This document shows, one piece after another, positions 125-8,686 of a stretch of 64,000 nt of DNA. A model generated the notes under the pieces. It was given only the letters and a program-made list of their open reading frames with translations, was not told where the DNA came from and did no database searches. Every line of letters starts with the position of its first letter. Position 1 is the stretch's first letter. The position numbers were made by a program, and so were the translations under genes. The stretch is from a virus, in the IMG/VR virus record IMGVR_UViG_3300020477_000990, positions 1 through 64,000 of that record. One strand, given 5' to 3'.

Positions 125-1333
125 ATGAAACATATTAGAAAACAATTTCCGATATTTAATAAAAAACTACCTAGTGGAAAGACGCTAGTGTACTTTGATA
201 GTGCTAATTCTTCACAAAAACCACAAAGAGTAATTGATCGAATGAATACGTTTTTAACAGAAGAGTATTCTAGTGTTGGTAGAAGTATACATGAATTGTC
301 TAATAGTGCAACAAAGGCGGTTGAAGATAGTAGACAAGCAGTTGCTAAATTTATTAATGCTAGAGAACCAGATGAAATTGTTTTTACAAAATCAGCCACA
401 GAAGCAATTAATATGATATCAACGTCATATGGTAGAACAATGCAACCAGGTGATGAAATAATTACAACAGAAGTAGAACATCATTCAAATTATATTCCGT
501 GGCATTTACAACGTAAGTTTAATGGAGCAGTTATTAAGTTTCTTAAATTAAATAATGAGCATCAAATTAATATTGATGAGCTAGAATCATTAATTACAGA
601 CCGTACTAAAATAATTGCAATTACACATTTATCAAATACTACAGGGCAAACAATAGACGTTAAACGTGTTTGTGAAATTGCTCATGCAAAAGGTATAGTT
701 GTATCAGTTGATGGAACACAAGGTGCTCCACATATGAAAGTTAATGTACAAGATATTGATTGCGATTTTTATGTAATGAGTGGTCATAAAATGTATGCAC
801 CAAGTGGTATTGGAGTAATGTATGCTAAACGTAAATGGATTGATGAATTAGATCCAGCATTAGGTGGTGGTGGAATGATTACAAATGTTGATCATGATAC
901 TGTTGACTTTGCAGAAGGTTCTAAAAAATGGGAAGCTGGAACGTTAGCAGTAACTGAAATTGTTGGCTTACATGAAGCATTAAATTTTTATGTAGATACA
1001 GGTTTTGATGAAATGGTTAAGCATGAAGAAGAATTAATTAATTATGCTTATGAAAAAATGTCAGAAATAGATGGAATGCAGTTTATTGGAACAAAAAAAC
1101 GTAGTGCTGTTATTTCGTTTAATATTGATGGAATACATCATCAAGATATGGCTATGTTTTTAGATGCTTATGGAATAGCAACTCGTCCAGGGCACCATTG
1201 TACACAAATGCTACATAGACAAATAGGATGGACAGGATCTTGTAGAATATCTACAGGAGTGTACAATACAAAAGAGGAAGTTGATTATTTTCTAACTTGT
1301 TTAAATGAAATTAAAGGCAGGTTTGGCAAATAA
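125..1333 (+). CDS. sufS: SufS-type cysteine desulfurase (PLP aminotransferase class V)
   Basis: The 402-residue protein has the normal length of group II cysteine desulfurases, which take sulfur from cysteine onto an active-site cysteine for Fe-S cluster or thio-modification chemistry. Visible hallmarks are His120 in EVEHHSN, Asp196 in SVDGTQ, the PLP lysine Lys222 in SGHKMYAPSG, and the persulfide cysteine Cys359 in RPGHHC. It looks intact and active. It lies between tRNA-Ala and tRNA-Gly. A TATAAT box at 115-120 is only 4 nt from the ATG, so the transcript may start very near the start codon. No SufE/SufU, SufB, SufC or SufD is seen in the window. An A-type carrier (8363) and a CGFS glutaredoxin (41322) are encoded elsewhere. 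A cysteine desulfurase is unusual phage cargo; a CsdA-like role in tRNA thiolation is an alternative. Confidence 0.93.
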   Translation: MKHIRKQFPIFNKKLPSGKTLVYFDSANSSQKPQRVIDRMNTFLTEEYSSVGRSIHELSNSATKAVEDSRQAVAKFINAREPDEIVFTKSATEAINMISTSYGRTMQPGDEIITTEVEHHSNYIPWHLQRKFNGAVIKFLKLNNEHQINIDELESLITDRTKIIAITHLSNTTGQTIDVKRVCEIAHAKGIVVSVDGTQGAPHMKVNVQDIDCDFYVMSGHKMYAPSGIGVMYAKRKWIDELDPALGGGGMITNVDHDTVDFAEGSKKWEAGTLAVTEIVGLHEALNFYVDTGFDEMVKHEEELINYAYEKMSEIDGMQFIGTKKRSAVISFNIDGIHHQDMAMFLDAYGIATRPGHHCTQMLHRQIGWTGSCRISTGVYNTKEEVDYFLTCLNEIKGRFGK

Positions 1334-2105: not shown

Positions 2106-2120
2106 TAATTGGAGATAATA

Positions 2121-3179
2121 ATGATCAAAATAGATACAATTTCTCAAGAAGGATATGAGAAAGTAATACGTATAACTGAACCAGAAAGTGGATTAAATTG
2201 TGTTATTGCATTATGTGATTATTTAAAAACAAAACACATTGCTTTATGTAGTATTAAAGTAGAAGAATATACATCAGATAATTTGCATTTAGATAGAACA
2301 TTAAGATATGCTAATAGTGTAGCTAAAAAACTATCGTATGCAGGATTACCTTACACTGGTGGTTCAATAACAATCAATAAAAGTTCAATTAAAAGTGAAA
2401 GAGAAGCATTAAACCAATTGTCTACTTTTTTAACAACAAATTTAAAAGATGAGTTAGTAGCCTTTGTAGAATATGGTCTTGAAGAATTAGCATTAGATCA
2501 TTTATGTAAAAATTGTGATAGTGTTATACAAATTGATAGTGATTTGTATTTTAAAGCACAGGCAAAAGGTGCATACTATTCTATACGAGCTTTACAACAA
2601 TTTCAAAGTGGAAATAAAAATTTAAAATATAAACATATTGTAATAGACGGAGTCGGACCATTAGGTTCAGAGTTAGCACAATTACTTGATCGTGCAGGAG
2701 CAAATATTACTGTTTGTGATAATGACGAACAAAATATAAACGATTTATATGCTCATATGCATTTTGGTAAATGTACAGTTGAAGAAGCTCCTTCAGTTCC
2801 AGGTGATGTATATGTTTTATGTAGTAGTCCAGAAAAATTAGATAAGAAGTCTACATATGAAATTAAGTCGTCAAGAATTGTAGGTGTAACTGATGCACAA
2901 TTATCTAGTAACAAAGCAGGATATAATTTACATAGTAAAGATATTATATATGTTCCTGAGTTTGTTGCAGGAGTTGGTGGGTTAGTTGCTATTGCAAAAC
3001 AACAATCAAAAGTTAAAAAAACTTTAGACAAAGAGTTAGATACTATTTTTACTAGAACATTGTCGTTATTAAACCATAGTTCAAAAAATAGAAAGCCACC
3101 ATTTATTGTAGCTGAACAACAAATGACAGATAAATCACCAACTAAACAGGCCAAACAACCAGAAACAATAACAATATGA
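2121..3179 (+). CDS. Degenerate Glu/Leu/Phe/Val dehydrogenase-like protein
   Basis: The 352-residue protein follows the leucine dehydrogenase layout. An N-terminal dimerisation/substrate domain ends in KLSYAGLPYTGGSITI, and a Rossmann domain starts with GVGPLGSELAQLLDRAGA. In active enzymes the aligned segments carry two lysines (TYKNA...GGGK). Here both positions are replaced (LSYAG and TGGS), so oxidative deamination is unlikely. The Rossmann glycines are kept, so it may still bind NAD(P). ATG 2121 is chosen because GGAGA lies just upstream; a longer TTG start at 2109 is less likely. The last 4 bases overlap the next gene (ATGA). Role unknown, perhaps structural or regulatory. Confidence 0.65.
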   Translation: MIKIDTISQEGYEKVIRITEPESGLNCVIALCDYLKTKHIALCSIKVEEYTSDNLHLDRTLRYANSVAKKLSYAGLPYTGGSITINKSSIKSEREALNQLSTFLTTNLKDELVAFVEYGLEELALDHLCKNCDSVIQIDSDLYFKAQAKGAYYSIRALQQFQSGNKNLKYKHIVIDGVGPLGSELAQLLDRAGANITVCDNDEQNINDLYAHMHFGKCTVEEAPSVPGDVYVLCSSPEKLDKKSTYEIKSSRIVGVTDAQLSSNKAGYNLHSKDIIYVPEFVAGVGGLVAIAKQQSKVKKTLDKELDTIFTRTLSLLNHSSKNRKPPFIVAEQQMTDKSPTKQAKQPETITI

Positions 3180-3379: not shown

Positions 3380-3407
3380 TTAGTCTTTTTGGTTGACAAA
3401 AGACTAA
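3380..3407 (+). repeat. 10-bp perfect inverted repeat overlapping a -35 box
   Basis: TTAGTCTTTT (3380-3389) is matched by AAAAGACTAA (3398-3407) around an 8-nt loop that holds GGTTGAC. The repeat covers the TTGACA of the next promoter, so it may be an operator, or a terminator hairpin for the upstream operon. Confidence 0.5.
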
Positions 3408-3420
3408 TAGATGTTATATT
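3393..3420 (+). promoter_or_regulatory. Sigma-70-like promoter (TTGACA-N16-TATATT)
   Basis: The -35 TTGACA is at 3393-3398 and the -10 TATATT at 3415-3420. The -10 box ends exactly 6 nt before the ATG at 3427, so transcription should start at or next to the start codon. Confidence 0.65.
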
Positions 3421-3426
3421 AATATT

Positions 3427-3873
3427 ATGACTATGCATTTAGAACGTGGCTTAACCACTCTGAATACAAAGAAGCGAAAGACTAAACCCAAGAAAATTGA
3501 GTATTATATGAAAGGGTTTAAAGAACAAAATAAGTTCTTAAAAAGTAAAGGTTTAGTACAAATGACCATGCAAGAATATATTGATTACAGACGTGGCAAG
3601 TTTAAGTCACCCGTTACTACAAATAGGAGTGTAGTGTCAACGGTTAGCACGTCGGTCTCCAAAACCGAAAGTGAGGGTTCGAATCCTTCCACTTCTGCCA
3701 AACCAGAACCTAAATTGAGTAACAAAATAGGCGGTGGTGCTACAAGAAATTGGCGTGAAGAAAAAGAAAGATTAGAAGTAAGTAGAAAATATTCAATTGT
3801 ACCTGCTTATAATAAAGGACCATATATGGTTGTATCAAAAGACGATTTAAAAACAGCAGGTAGAAAAGTATGA
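3427..3873 (+). CDS. Unknown protein whose reading frame runs through a tRNA-Trp gene
   Basis: This 148-codon open frame has a basic N-terminal part (KKRKTKPKKIEYYMKGFKEQ, then YIDYRRGKFK) and a C-terminal part (NWREEKERLEV...YNKGPYMVVSKDDLK). Both read like protein and are in the same frame. Between them, codons about 67-91 are exactly the tRNA-Trp gene at 3625-3700, translated as a serine- and threonine-rich stretch. The start has no Shine-Dalgarno and lies 6 nt behind a -10 box. It overlaps the lipoprotein gene by 4 nt (ATGA). Either the tRNA inserted in frame into an older gene, or the two halves are relics kept open by chance. Function unknown. Confidence 0.6.
   Translation: MTMHLERGLTTLNTKKRKTKPKKIEYYMKGFKEQNKFLKSKGLVQMTMQEYIDYRRGKFKSPVTTNRSVVSTVSTSVSKTESEGSNPSTSAKPEPKLSNKIGGGATRNWREEKERLEVSRKYSIVPAYNKGPYMVVSKDDLKTAGRKV
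3625..3700 (+). tRNA. tRNA-Trp (anticodon CCA), nested in a coding frame
   Basis: The acceptor arm AGGAGTG pairs with CACTTCT, the discriminator is G, and the CCA is encoded at 3698-3700. The anticodon stem-loop is TCGGT-CTCCAAA-ACCGA with anticodon CCA, and the T-arm contains GGGTTCGAATCC. All helices form. The gene lies wholly inside the 3427-3873 reading frame on the same strand, so maturing the tRNA would cut that mRNA. Confidence 0.9.
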
Positions 3874-7823: not shown

Positions 7824-8366
7824 ATGGAAACTTCGAACGACAAGTACGAAATTATAAGAACGGTGTGGCGTTCTGGTCGCAAGAATGATTTTGGAGATGA
7901 ATTGGTTGTTACACAAGGTAATGTTAATTTAAAGTTAGCATATATTATGGCATGGGAAGTAAATGAAAATAGACCCGAGTGTGTTTGCTGGAATGGCACC
8001 GTAGCATACTTTCCACGTATGTTTTGGTTAGACAGCATTCCAAAAAATTTTATTAAAGTTTATAACCACTCTGAAGAGAAACATTACTTAATTGAAAAGG
8101 ATAAACATTATACTATAAATGAAGATGGCATTTATGTGAAGTATAATAAAGAAGAAGGTACAGATGTGTATCAACCACAATTTATAAATGTAACTAAAAA
8201 CCCATCAGCATTAACACAGGCAATAGAATATGTGCTTTGGTTTAATGAAAATCAACGTCAACTTGACACTTATAATAGGTTATTAAGTACGTCAAAACAA
8301 GCAAGAAAACGTAGAAGAAATAGAGCTTCTAAAACGGTTGAAAAACAGATAAATACTACATTATGA
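7824..8366 (+). CDS. Unknown protein with basic C-terminus
   Basis: The 180-residue soluble protein has a Cys/Trp-rich centre (RPECVCWNGTVAYFPRMFW) and a basic tail (KQARKRRRNRASK) that could bind nucleic acid. It starts 4 nt after the H1-like gene. Its last codons contain a late promoter box for the Fe-S carrier gene, which starts within its stop (ATGA). No family recognised. Confidence 0.65.
   Translation: METSNDKYEIIRTVWRSGRKNDFGDELVVTQGNVNLKLAYIMAWEVNENRPECVCWNGTVAYFPRMFWLDSIPKNFIKVYNHSEEKHYLIEKDKHYTINEDGIYVKYNKEEGTDVYQPQFINVTKNPSALTQAIEYVLWFNENQRQLDTYNRLLSTSKQARKRRRNRASKTVEKQINTTL
8348..8355 (+). promoter_or_regulatory. Late-promoter-like box GATAAATA inside a coding end
   Basis: The box lies within the last codons of the preceding gene and ends 7 nt before the ATG of the A-type carrier gene at 8363. 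It would give a nearly leaderless transcript. Confidence 0.45.
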
Positions 8367-8686
8367 TAACACTTACAGATTCAGCAAAACAACAGATTAT
8401 AGATTTGTGTAAGCAAAATGAAGTAGATGCAGTTAAGCTATCAGTAGAAGGTGGCGGATGTGCAGGCTTTAAGTATGACTGGGGATTTACTAGTAATGAT
8501 AAAATTGCATCAGATGATGAAGTTTTTGAATTAACAGAAGGTAAATTTGTAGTAGATGGTATGAGTGTGATGTATATTGCAGGTACAGAAATAGATTATG
8601 TACGTGAAGTATTTGGTTCACATTTTGAAATTAGAAATCCATCAGCATCATCGTCATGTGGCTGTGGTGAAAGCTTCGGAGTCTAA
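8363..8686 (+). CDS. A-type Fe-S cluster carrier (IscA/SufA/ErpA family)
   Basis: The 107-residue protein has the three conserved cluster-binding cysteines in the correct frame: Cys33 in GGGCAGF, and Cys99 and Cys101 in SSSCGCGESF. The rest follows the HesB/IscA fold (KLSVEGGGCAGFKYDW, FVVDGMSVMYIAGTEIDYV). Such proteins receive Fe-S clusters and hand them to target enzymes. Together with SufS and the CGFS glutaredoxin in this window it forms a partial Fe-S set. A client in the phage could be the radical-SAM QueE. It overlaps the upstream gene by 4 nt. Confidence 0.93.
   Translation: MITLTDSAKQQIIDLCKQNEVDAVKLSVEGGGCAGFKYDWGFTSNDKIASDDEVFELTEGKFVVDGMSVMYIAGTEIDYVREVFGSHFEIRNPSASSSCGCGESFGV

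Follow-up and report, generated by a model that had tools for sequence, protein, structure and literature searches.

A phage gene family with tRNA genes nested in frame within a linker predicted to be disordered

Can one stretch of DNA, on a single strand and in a single reading frame, be both a complete tRNA gene and part of a gene for a protein? The question arises from a locus in bases 1-64000 (hereafter, the window) of a 328,149-bp virus record (G000), for which the initial annotation described a complete tRNA-Trp lying in frame inside an open reading frame, with protein-like sequence on either side. The source phage is a giant marine T4-like virus of bacteria. Its record meets the criteria for T4-like jumbo phages, namely a Gp23-type major capsid protein (PF07068 match, 322 bits) and a genome larger than 200 kb, and the capsid protein is nearest to those of the jumbo T4-like phages PA5oct, CBB and Vibrio 2.275.O, at 65-69% identity. 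Because an identical tRNA-Ala is borne at both termini, the record looks terminally redundant. It encodes 15 distinct tRNAs, and the nested copy is its single tRNA-Trp. Genes of metabolic character lie near the locus (window 125-1333, 2109-3179 and 8363-8683), encoding a class-V aminotransferase (SufS-like), a dehydrogenase-like protein and an Fe-S biosynthesis (HesB-like) protein.

The tRNA itself leaves little room for doubt. ARAGORN and Rfam both call it (RF00005, 60.0 bits against a gathering score of 29), the 3' CCA is genomically encoded, as the initial annotation had stated, and the host ORF remains open throughout (Table 1). It satisfies the sequence criterion for a functional tRNA gene, a cloverleaf above the curated score together with an anticodon, as well as that for a nested tRNA, a whole tRNA within an ORF on the same strand with an open frame. 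Starting at codon phase 0, it codes for residues 67-92 of the protein, or 25-26 codons of linker, which would include the peptides SVVSTVSTSVSK and TESEGSNPSTSAKPEPK; both other sense frames across it contain TAG. The further claim that such an open frame is unlikely by chance did not survive: sense frames are open at a rate of 30% in a background set of 149 distinct tRNAs from outside the gene, so one such frame is weak evidence. What lifts the nesting far above chance, on the comparative evidence set out below, is homology on both sides of the tRNA combined with open frames across the family.

Table 1. Positions of the features in the window and of tandem nested tRNAs at other loci of the family.
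Feature	Position	Strand	Basis or remark
Promoter-like site TTGACA-16-TATATT	3393-3420	+	Consensus scan, 11/12 matches; not by itself evidence of function
Host ORF, 148 aa, ATG 3427, TGA 3871-3873	3427-3873	+	ORF list, homology, purifying selection
N-terminal part, 66 codons	3427-3624	+	Alignments, AF2; predicted helical region at residues 24-55
tRNA-Trp, 76 nt	3625-3700	+	ARAGORN, Rfam, covariation; in-frame translation RSVVSTVSTSVSKTESEGSNPSTSAK
Anticodon CCA	3659-3661	+	ARAGORN; anticodon at tRNA position 35
C-terminal part, 56 codons	3703-3870	+	Conserved in tRNA-bearing and tRNA-less homologues
Conserved tail KYSIVPAYNKGPYMVVSKDDLKTAGRKV	3787-3870	+	Alignments of homologues with and without tRNA
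Next ORF, lipoprotein-like, 106 aa	3870-4190	+	Sequence, ORF list; same neighbour in L001
Tandem tRNAs (Glu+Ala, Arg+Pro types)	L307:1738-1898, L327:1244-1404, L335:318-478		
Tandem tRNAs (Glu+Ala, Arg+Pro types)	L243:3953-4112, L296:5947-6106	minus	

The host protein satisfies the criterion of the AYNKG-tail family (C-tail AYNKG(P/A/G)xxV...G), as judged from alignments and a weak C-terminal match to phrog_4593 (E 5e-4). As to its function, nothing informative was returned by Pfam, NCBIfam, PHROGs, PDB sequences or Foldseek against BFVD. The N-terminal part is rich in Lys/Arg, and the stop codon of the ORF is overlapped by the ATG of the next one (ATGA). In the AF2 model, whose mean pLDDT is 63, block means reach 86-94 over residues 21-60, and the sole listed stretch with pLDDT below 50 comprises residues 66-104. 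The tRNA is thus predicted to occupy a disordered linker between a helical N-terminal part and the conserved C-terminal tail, and because of this predicted disorder an in-frame tRNA should be tolerated there.

For comparison we took the best 80 of 404 related stretches in IMG/VR. Homologues without the tRNA combine the same N-terminal part and the same C-terminal tail (YSIVPAYNKGPYMVV...TAGRKV) in a single ORF that is about as long, and in many of them an RETPxYPS-type linker stands at the place of the window's tRNA. Homology was found for both flanks, in agreement with the protein-like character first ascribed to them, and the separate alignment of the two parts that had been proposed as a check gave a clear answer: since tRNA-less homologues keep both halves in one ORF, the suggested refutation, that the halves would prove to be two unrelated ORFs, fails. 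To judge from pS of 0.52-0.92 against pN of 0.10-0.38, both protein flanks are under purifying selection.

An in-frame tRNA-Trp at this site is also present in L003, L004, L011 and L012, the last being identical to L011 over this region. A common gene order unites L003, L005, L006, L009, L010 and L011, of which only L003 and L011 have the tRNA; L001, L002 and L007 share neighbouring genes with the window and have none. When the linker is left out of tree building, the window's clade needs at least 4 changes to account for its four tRNA-bearing rows. In these four (the window, L003, L004 and L011), all 84 stem cells are paired, six pairs are changed on both sides, and no common start codon is found between tRNA and tail. 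Comparison of the window, L003 and L004 gives a pS of 0-0.05 and 90-97% identity for the tRNA segment, whereas the flanks are near synonymous saturation. This contrast fits either an old tRNA under selection at the RNA level or a tRNA spread by recombination; the recent insertion suggested at first is not demonstrated by it. The tRNA of L011 differs from the other three and is, by inspection, identical at 73/75 positions to a freestanding tRNA-Trp of other marine phages, so it probably arrived separately.

One 75-nt freestanding tRNA-Trp is identical over its full length in L141, L142, L144, L147, L148 and L149, occurs in several gene contexts and in one case adjoins a capsid gene; its distribution suggests that it is a mobile tRNA gene of marine phages. 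Nothing closely matching the nested tRNA-Trp turned up in the one Pelagibacter MAG examined. A G3:U70 acceptor pair is common to the four nested tRNA-Trp of the clade and to the free tRNA of the L142 type. Elsewhere this pair is the main alanine identity element; whether charging is affected here is unknown.

The frames were then considered across the whole family in a scan of IMG/VR that imposed no frame condition, searching for the T-arm GTTCRANYC 81-141 nt before AYNKG codons, so that its reach is set by a single T-arm consensus and a single tail motif. The tRNAs were called by ARAGORN, with Rfam applied to a subset. Among the matches listed, a tRNA lies upstream at 96 of the 114 sites with the tail in frame, and the tail ORF is open through the tRNA(s) in every one of these 96 members and closed in 0. 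This rules out the reading of the host gene as a chance ORF, as far as the listed matches go. The 96 comprise Ala (21), Trp (21), Asp (15), Thr (11), Pro (11), Glu (8) and Arg (4), together with the tandem types Glu+Ala (3) and Arg+Pro (2); tandem pairs within one family ORF thus occur at five of the listed loci, with the two tRNAs 5 or 8 nt apart. Pooling all loci gives at least 80 distinct nested tRNAs of at least seven isotypes (Trp, Ala, Pro, Asp, Glu, Thr, Arg) and five lengths (74-78 nt), all encoding CCA. Among the listed matches of the pooled loci, the used frame is open in 80/80 distinct tRNAs, compared to 37/160 for the other sense frames. Over 20 tRNA clusters (80% identity) the random-frame probability is 10^-6.5, although the clusters may not be independent insertions.

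At least 30 open codons on both sides were found for 1 of the 149 tRNAs outside the gene. This contrast is biased, the source loci of the 149 having been selected for this gene or tRNA, and it provides no genome-wide rate. Of 83 distinct ORFs, just 1 offers, between tRNA and tail, an in-frame start preceded by an SD-like sequence. When members are labelled by the presence of any tRNA, a 174-row tree requires at least 11 changes, 5 of them forced by well-supported branches, on an alignment of only 89 columns. These comparisons indicate that the same linker repeatedly received tRNAs of seven isotypes, sometimes in tandem. The trait looked rare at first because earlier scans used the tail YNKGPYM, which was too narrow and yielded only four other contigs among the matches listed; the relaxed AYNKG showed it to be common. 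With the narrower pattern, GTDB genomes gave no nested case and two tRNA-less family members.

Do the nested tRNAs also evolve as tRNAs? In a sample covering all seven isotypes, Rfam scores range from 45 to 73 bits, and stems grouped by isotype and length are 94-100% paired, with compensatory changes. Pairing lies above the shuffled mean in 9/9 groups and above every shuffle in 7/9; the two groups in which shuffles reach the observed value, Arg and Trp of 76 nt, have low variation. Comparison thus supports two statements about the same nucleotides, namely that the tRNA shows the evolutionary behaviour of a tRNA, with its fold intact, compensatory changes and CCA encoded, and that the protein, with two-sided homology, purifying selection and open frames in 96/96 listed members, has evolved across it as a single protein. 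The selection on nesting that the initial annotation had suspected is supported.

Outside metagenomes, the arrangement is found in the cultured OM43 phage Melnitz (host H5P1), whose homologue contains a nested tRNA-Trp, here of 74 nt, just as the window does; all other tRNA-bearing members come from metagenomic contigs. According to the Melnitz paper, the phage has four tRNAs, genes 59, 125, 147 and 153 (PMC9004378). In GenBank MZ577097, tags 59, 147 and 153 are tRNA features and tag 125 is absent; CDS 124 (MZ577097.1:68376-68819) spans the tRNA-Trp gene 125, and so does L084:3905-4348. In the Melnitz protein (QZI94853.1), the tRNA-coded stretch includes CYGSTSDSKPLGR and GSIPCSPAIR. Melnitz-like phages of OM43 share with the window the gene family and the in-frame tRNA-Trp, with gene 125 inside 124; in the passages found, the tRNA-Trp is treated only as a tRNA without close matches, with no remark on nesting (PMC9004378). 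Relatives of the Melnitz gene in IMG/VR comprise many nested tRNA-Trp variants, one tRNA-Pro and several members without a tRNA.

The isolates HTVC008M, Mosig and T5-like phages have proteins with the same conserved C-terminal tail (phrog_4593/AYNKG-tail proteins) and differ in having no tRNA inside them. In the T5-like Demerecviridae, these members of about 92-94 aa, again without a tRNA, adjoin RNase H (for example, L348:1315-1599) and offer a possible laboratory model for the protein. In Enterococcus phage EfsWh-1 (L161:752-1027), an annotated CDS spans a tRNA-Trp; this is probably an annotation artefact, because the tRNA is followed by an ATG with GGAGG ahead of it.

Taken together, we read the window gene as one of dual use, in which a transcript is either translated or processed to tRNA-Trp, and place the probability of this reading at roughly 0.85; neither output has been shown, as there are no RNA or protein data. 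The same DNA, strand and frame would provide a complete tRNA-Trp and 25-26 codons of disordered linker. A transcript taking the first route would be translated, its tRNA sequence being read as a Ser/Gly/Ala-rich spacer; on the second route it would fold, and cleavage by the host's RNase P and 3' nucleases would release a mature tRNA and destroy the mRNA. Each transcript could undergo one or the other and not both, and the competition between mRNA and tRNA outputs is a logical inference from this. Excision would leave a nonstop 5' fragment, from which trans-translation via the phage tmRNA may clear ribosomes. The choice of the linker would be explained by its tolerance of nearly every in-frame peptide and by its position within a gene that is transcribed, which would spare a nested tRNA both a promoter of its own and additional genome length.

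Two candidate companions of nesting were considered and dropped. With its -10 box ending 6 nt before the ATG at 3427, the promoter-like site would produce an mRNA without a leader. In L001, L002 and L004 comparable sites lie directly against the ATG, in L003 and L011 they do not, and a tie between promoter and nesting is unsupported, as the ATG-abutting site does not track the tRNA in the window's clade. An alpha-type tmRNA is encoded in the record (G000:C1:94937-95228, 131.6 bits) and also in Melnitz, HTVC008M and Mosig, while it was not seen in several partial records. Given its presence in HTVC008M and Mosig, which have no nested tRNA, it is unsupported as a mark of nesting, and any specific link between the two would be conjecture that we do not claim.

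Several other explanations have to be weighed against dual use. An assembly error or chimera would come to mind because most members are metagenomic, yet many independent contigs carry different tRNAs and the cultured Melnitz isolate genomes exclude it, leaving this practically without a chance. Hardly more credible is that the N- and C-terminal parts are separate genes, the latter started after the tRNA and the frame between them being open by accident. The GGAGG-preceded ATG of EfsWh-1 is the kind of start this would demand, but the frame is open in all 96 listed members, tRNA-less homologues form one ORF, and such a start is present in only one of the 83 distinct ORFs. A dead remnant, such as an integration site or a failed insertion, is likewise very improbable. 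It is true that tRNA genes are common integration sites; against this stand the complete fold, the compensatory changes and the CCA encoded in 80/80 distinct nested tRNAs, with evidence on integrases not included in this assessment.

The remaining two explanations concern the use made of the nested sequence. The tRNA-like element might act as a switch within the mRNA, recognized by RNase P or by a synthetase and lowering expression of the host gene and of the genes downstream, with the free tRNA unused in translation. An RNase P cut would indeed sever a compact operon, in which the next ORF overlaps the stop codon, and Mukai proposed repression of SelB by a nested tRNA-Sec (PMC8124441); a cleavage target, however, would need none of the intact anticodons, CCA ends and full cloverleaves seen in seven isotypes, and the nested copy is the only tRNA-Trp of a complete-looking record. 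We consider this switch unlikely. A much stronger contender, which we rate somewhat short of an even chance, is that nesting reflects genome packing only: tRNAs land widely and survive in a harmless linker, both products are used, and nothing is regulated by the nesting. The predicted disorder exactly at the tRNA site, the variety of isotypes, lengths (74-78 nt) and frames accepted, and the near-identical tRNA-Trp freestanding in other marine phages all speak for it, whereas it sits less well with recurrence in one gene family and with the scarcity of long open flanks on both sides of other tRNAs (1/149, a figure biased by the choice of loci). Packing alone is compatible with dual use and contradicts only regulation.

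Going beyond dual use, one may picture the family as a dock for interchangeable tRNAs, in which the choice between translation and processing sets the timing of protein and tRNA production in the course of infection and the N-terminal part possibly acts on the transcript. This remains a speculative and rather doubtful extension. Even without it, one viral gene family nests tRNAs repeatedly, with seven isotypes, in an isolate and in metagenomes, and represents a natural experiment on how a single RNA may serve as codons and as tRNA. Through nesting, large phages could add tRNAs while lengthening the genome hardly at all, and the family lends itself to tests of whether RNase P and the ribosome compete. 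It also exposes a gap in annotation, as records may retain the CDS alone or the tRNA alone, Melnitz being an example.

In the literature searched, which left most subscription journals and bioRxiv preprints out of scope, we found no published report of this phage family and one published precedent for a tRNA nested in a bacterial ORF. This closest precedent is selC (tRNA-Sec) within selB of Alphaproteobacteria (Mukai 2021, PMC8124441). In animals, a tRNA-Lys is reported to lie fully inside the coding region of mitochondrial cox1 of Armadillidium vulgare, likewise in direct orientation (Doublet 2015, as cited in PMC8124441), the difference being the compact genome of an animal mitochondrion. 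The selB/selC pair resembles the phage locus in that a whole same-strand tRNA inside an ORF is translated in frame, the stop codon overlaps the next start, and alternative mRNA or tRNA outputs are proposed on bioinformatic evidence only (PMC8124441). In selB, however, the tRNA lies at the 3' end and extends its own elongation factor C-terminally, is always tRNA-Sec and resides in cellular genomes (PMC8124441). The window departs from that pattern, with an internal tRNA-Trp in an unrelated gene. The phage family is set apart by tRNAs that sit internally between two conserved parts, belong to seven isotypes, occur as tandem pairs and have been gained or lost repeatedly.
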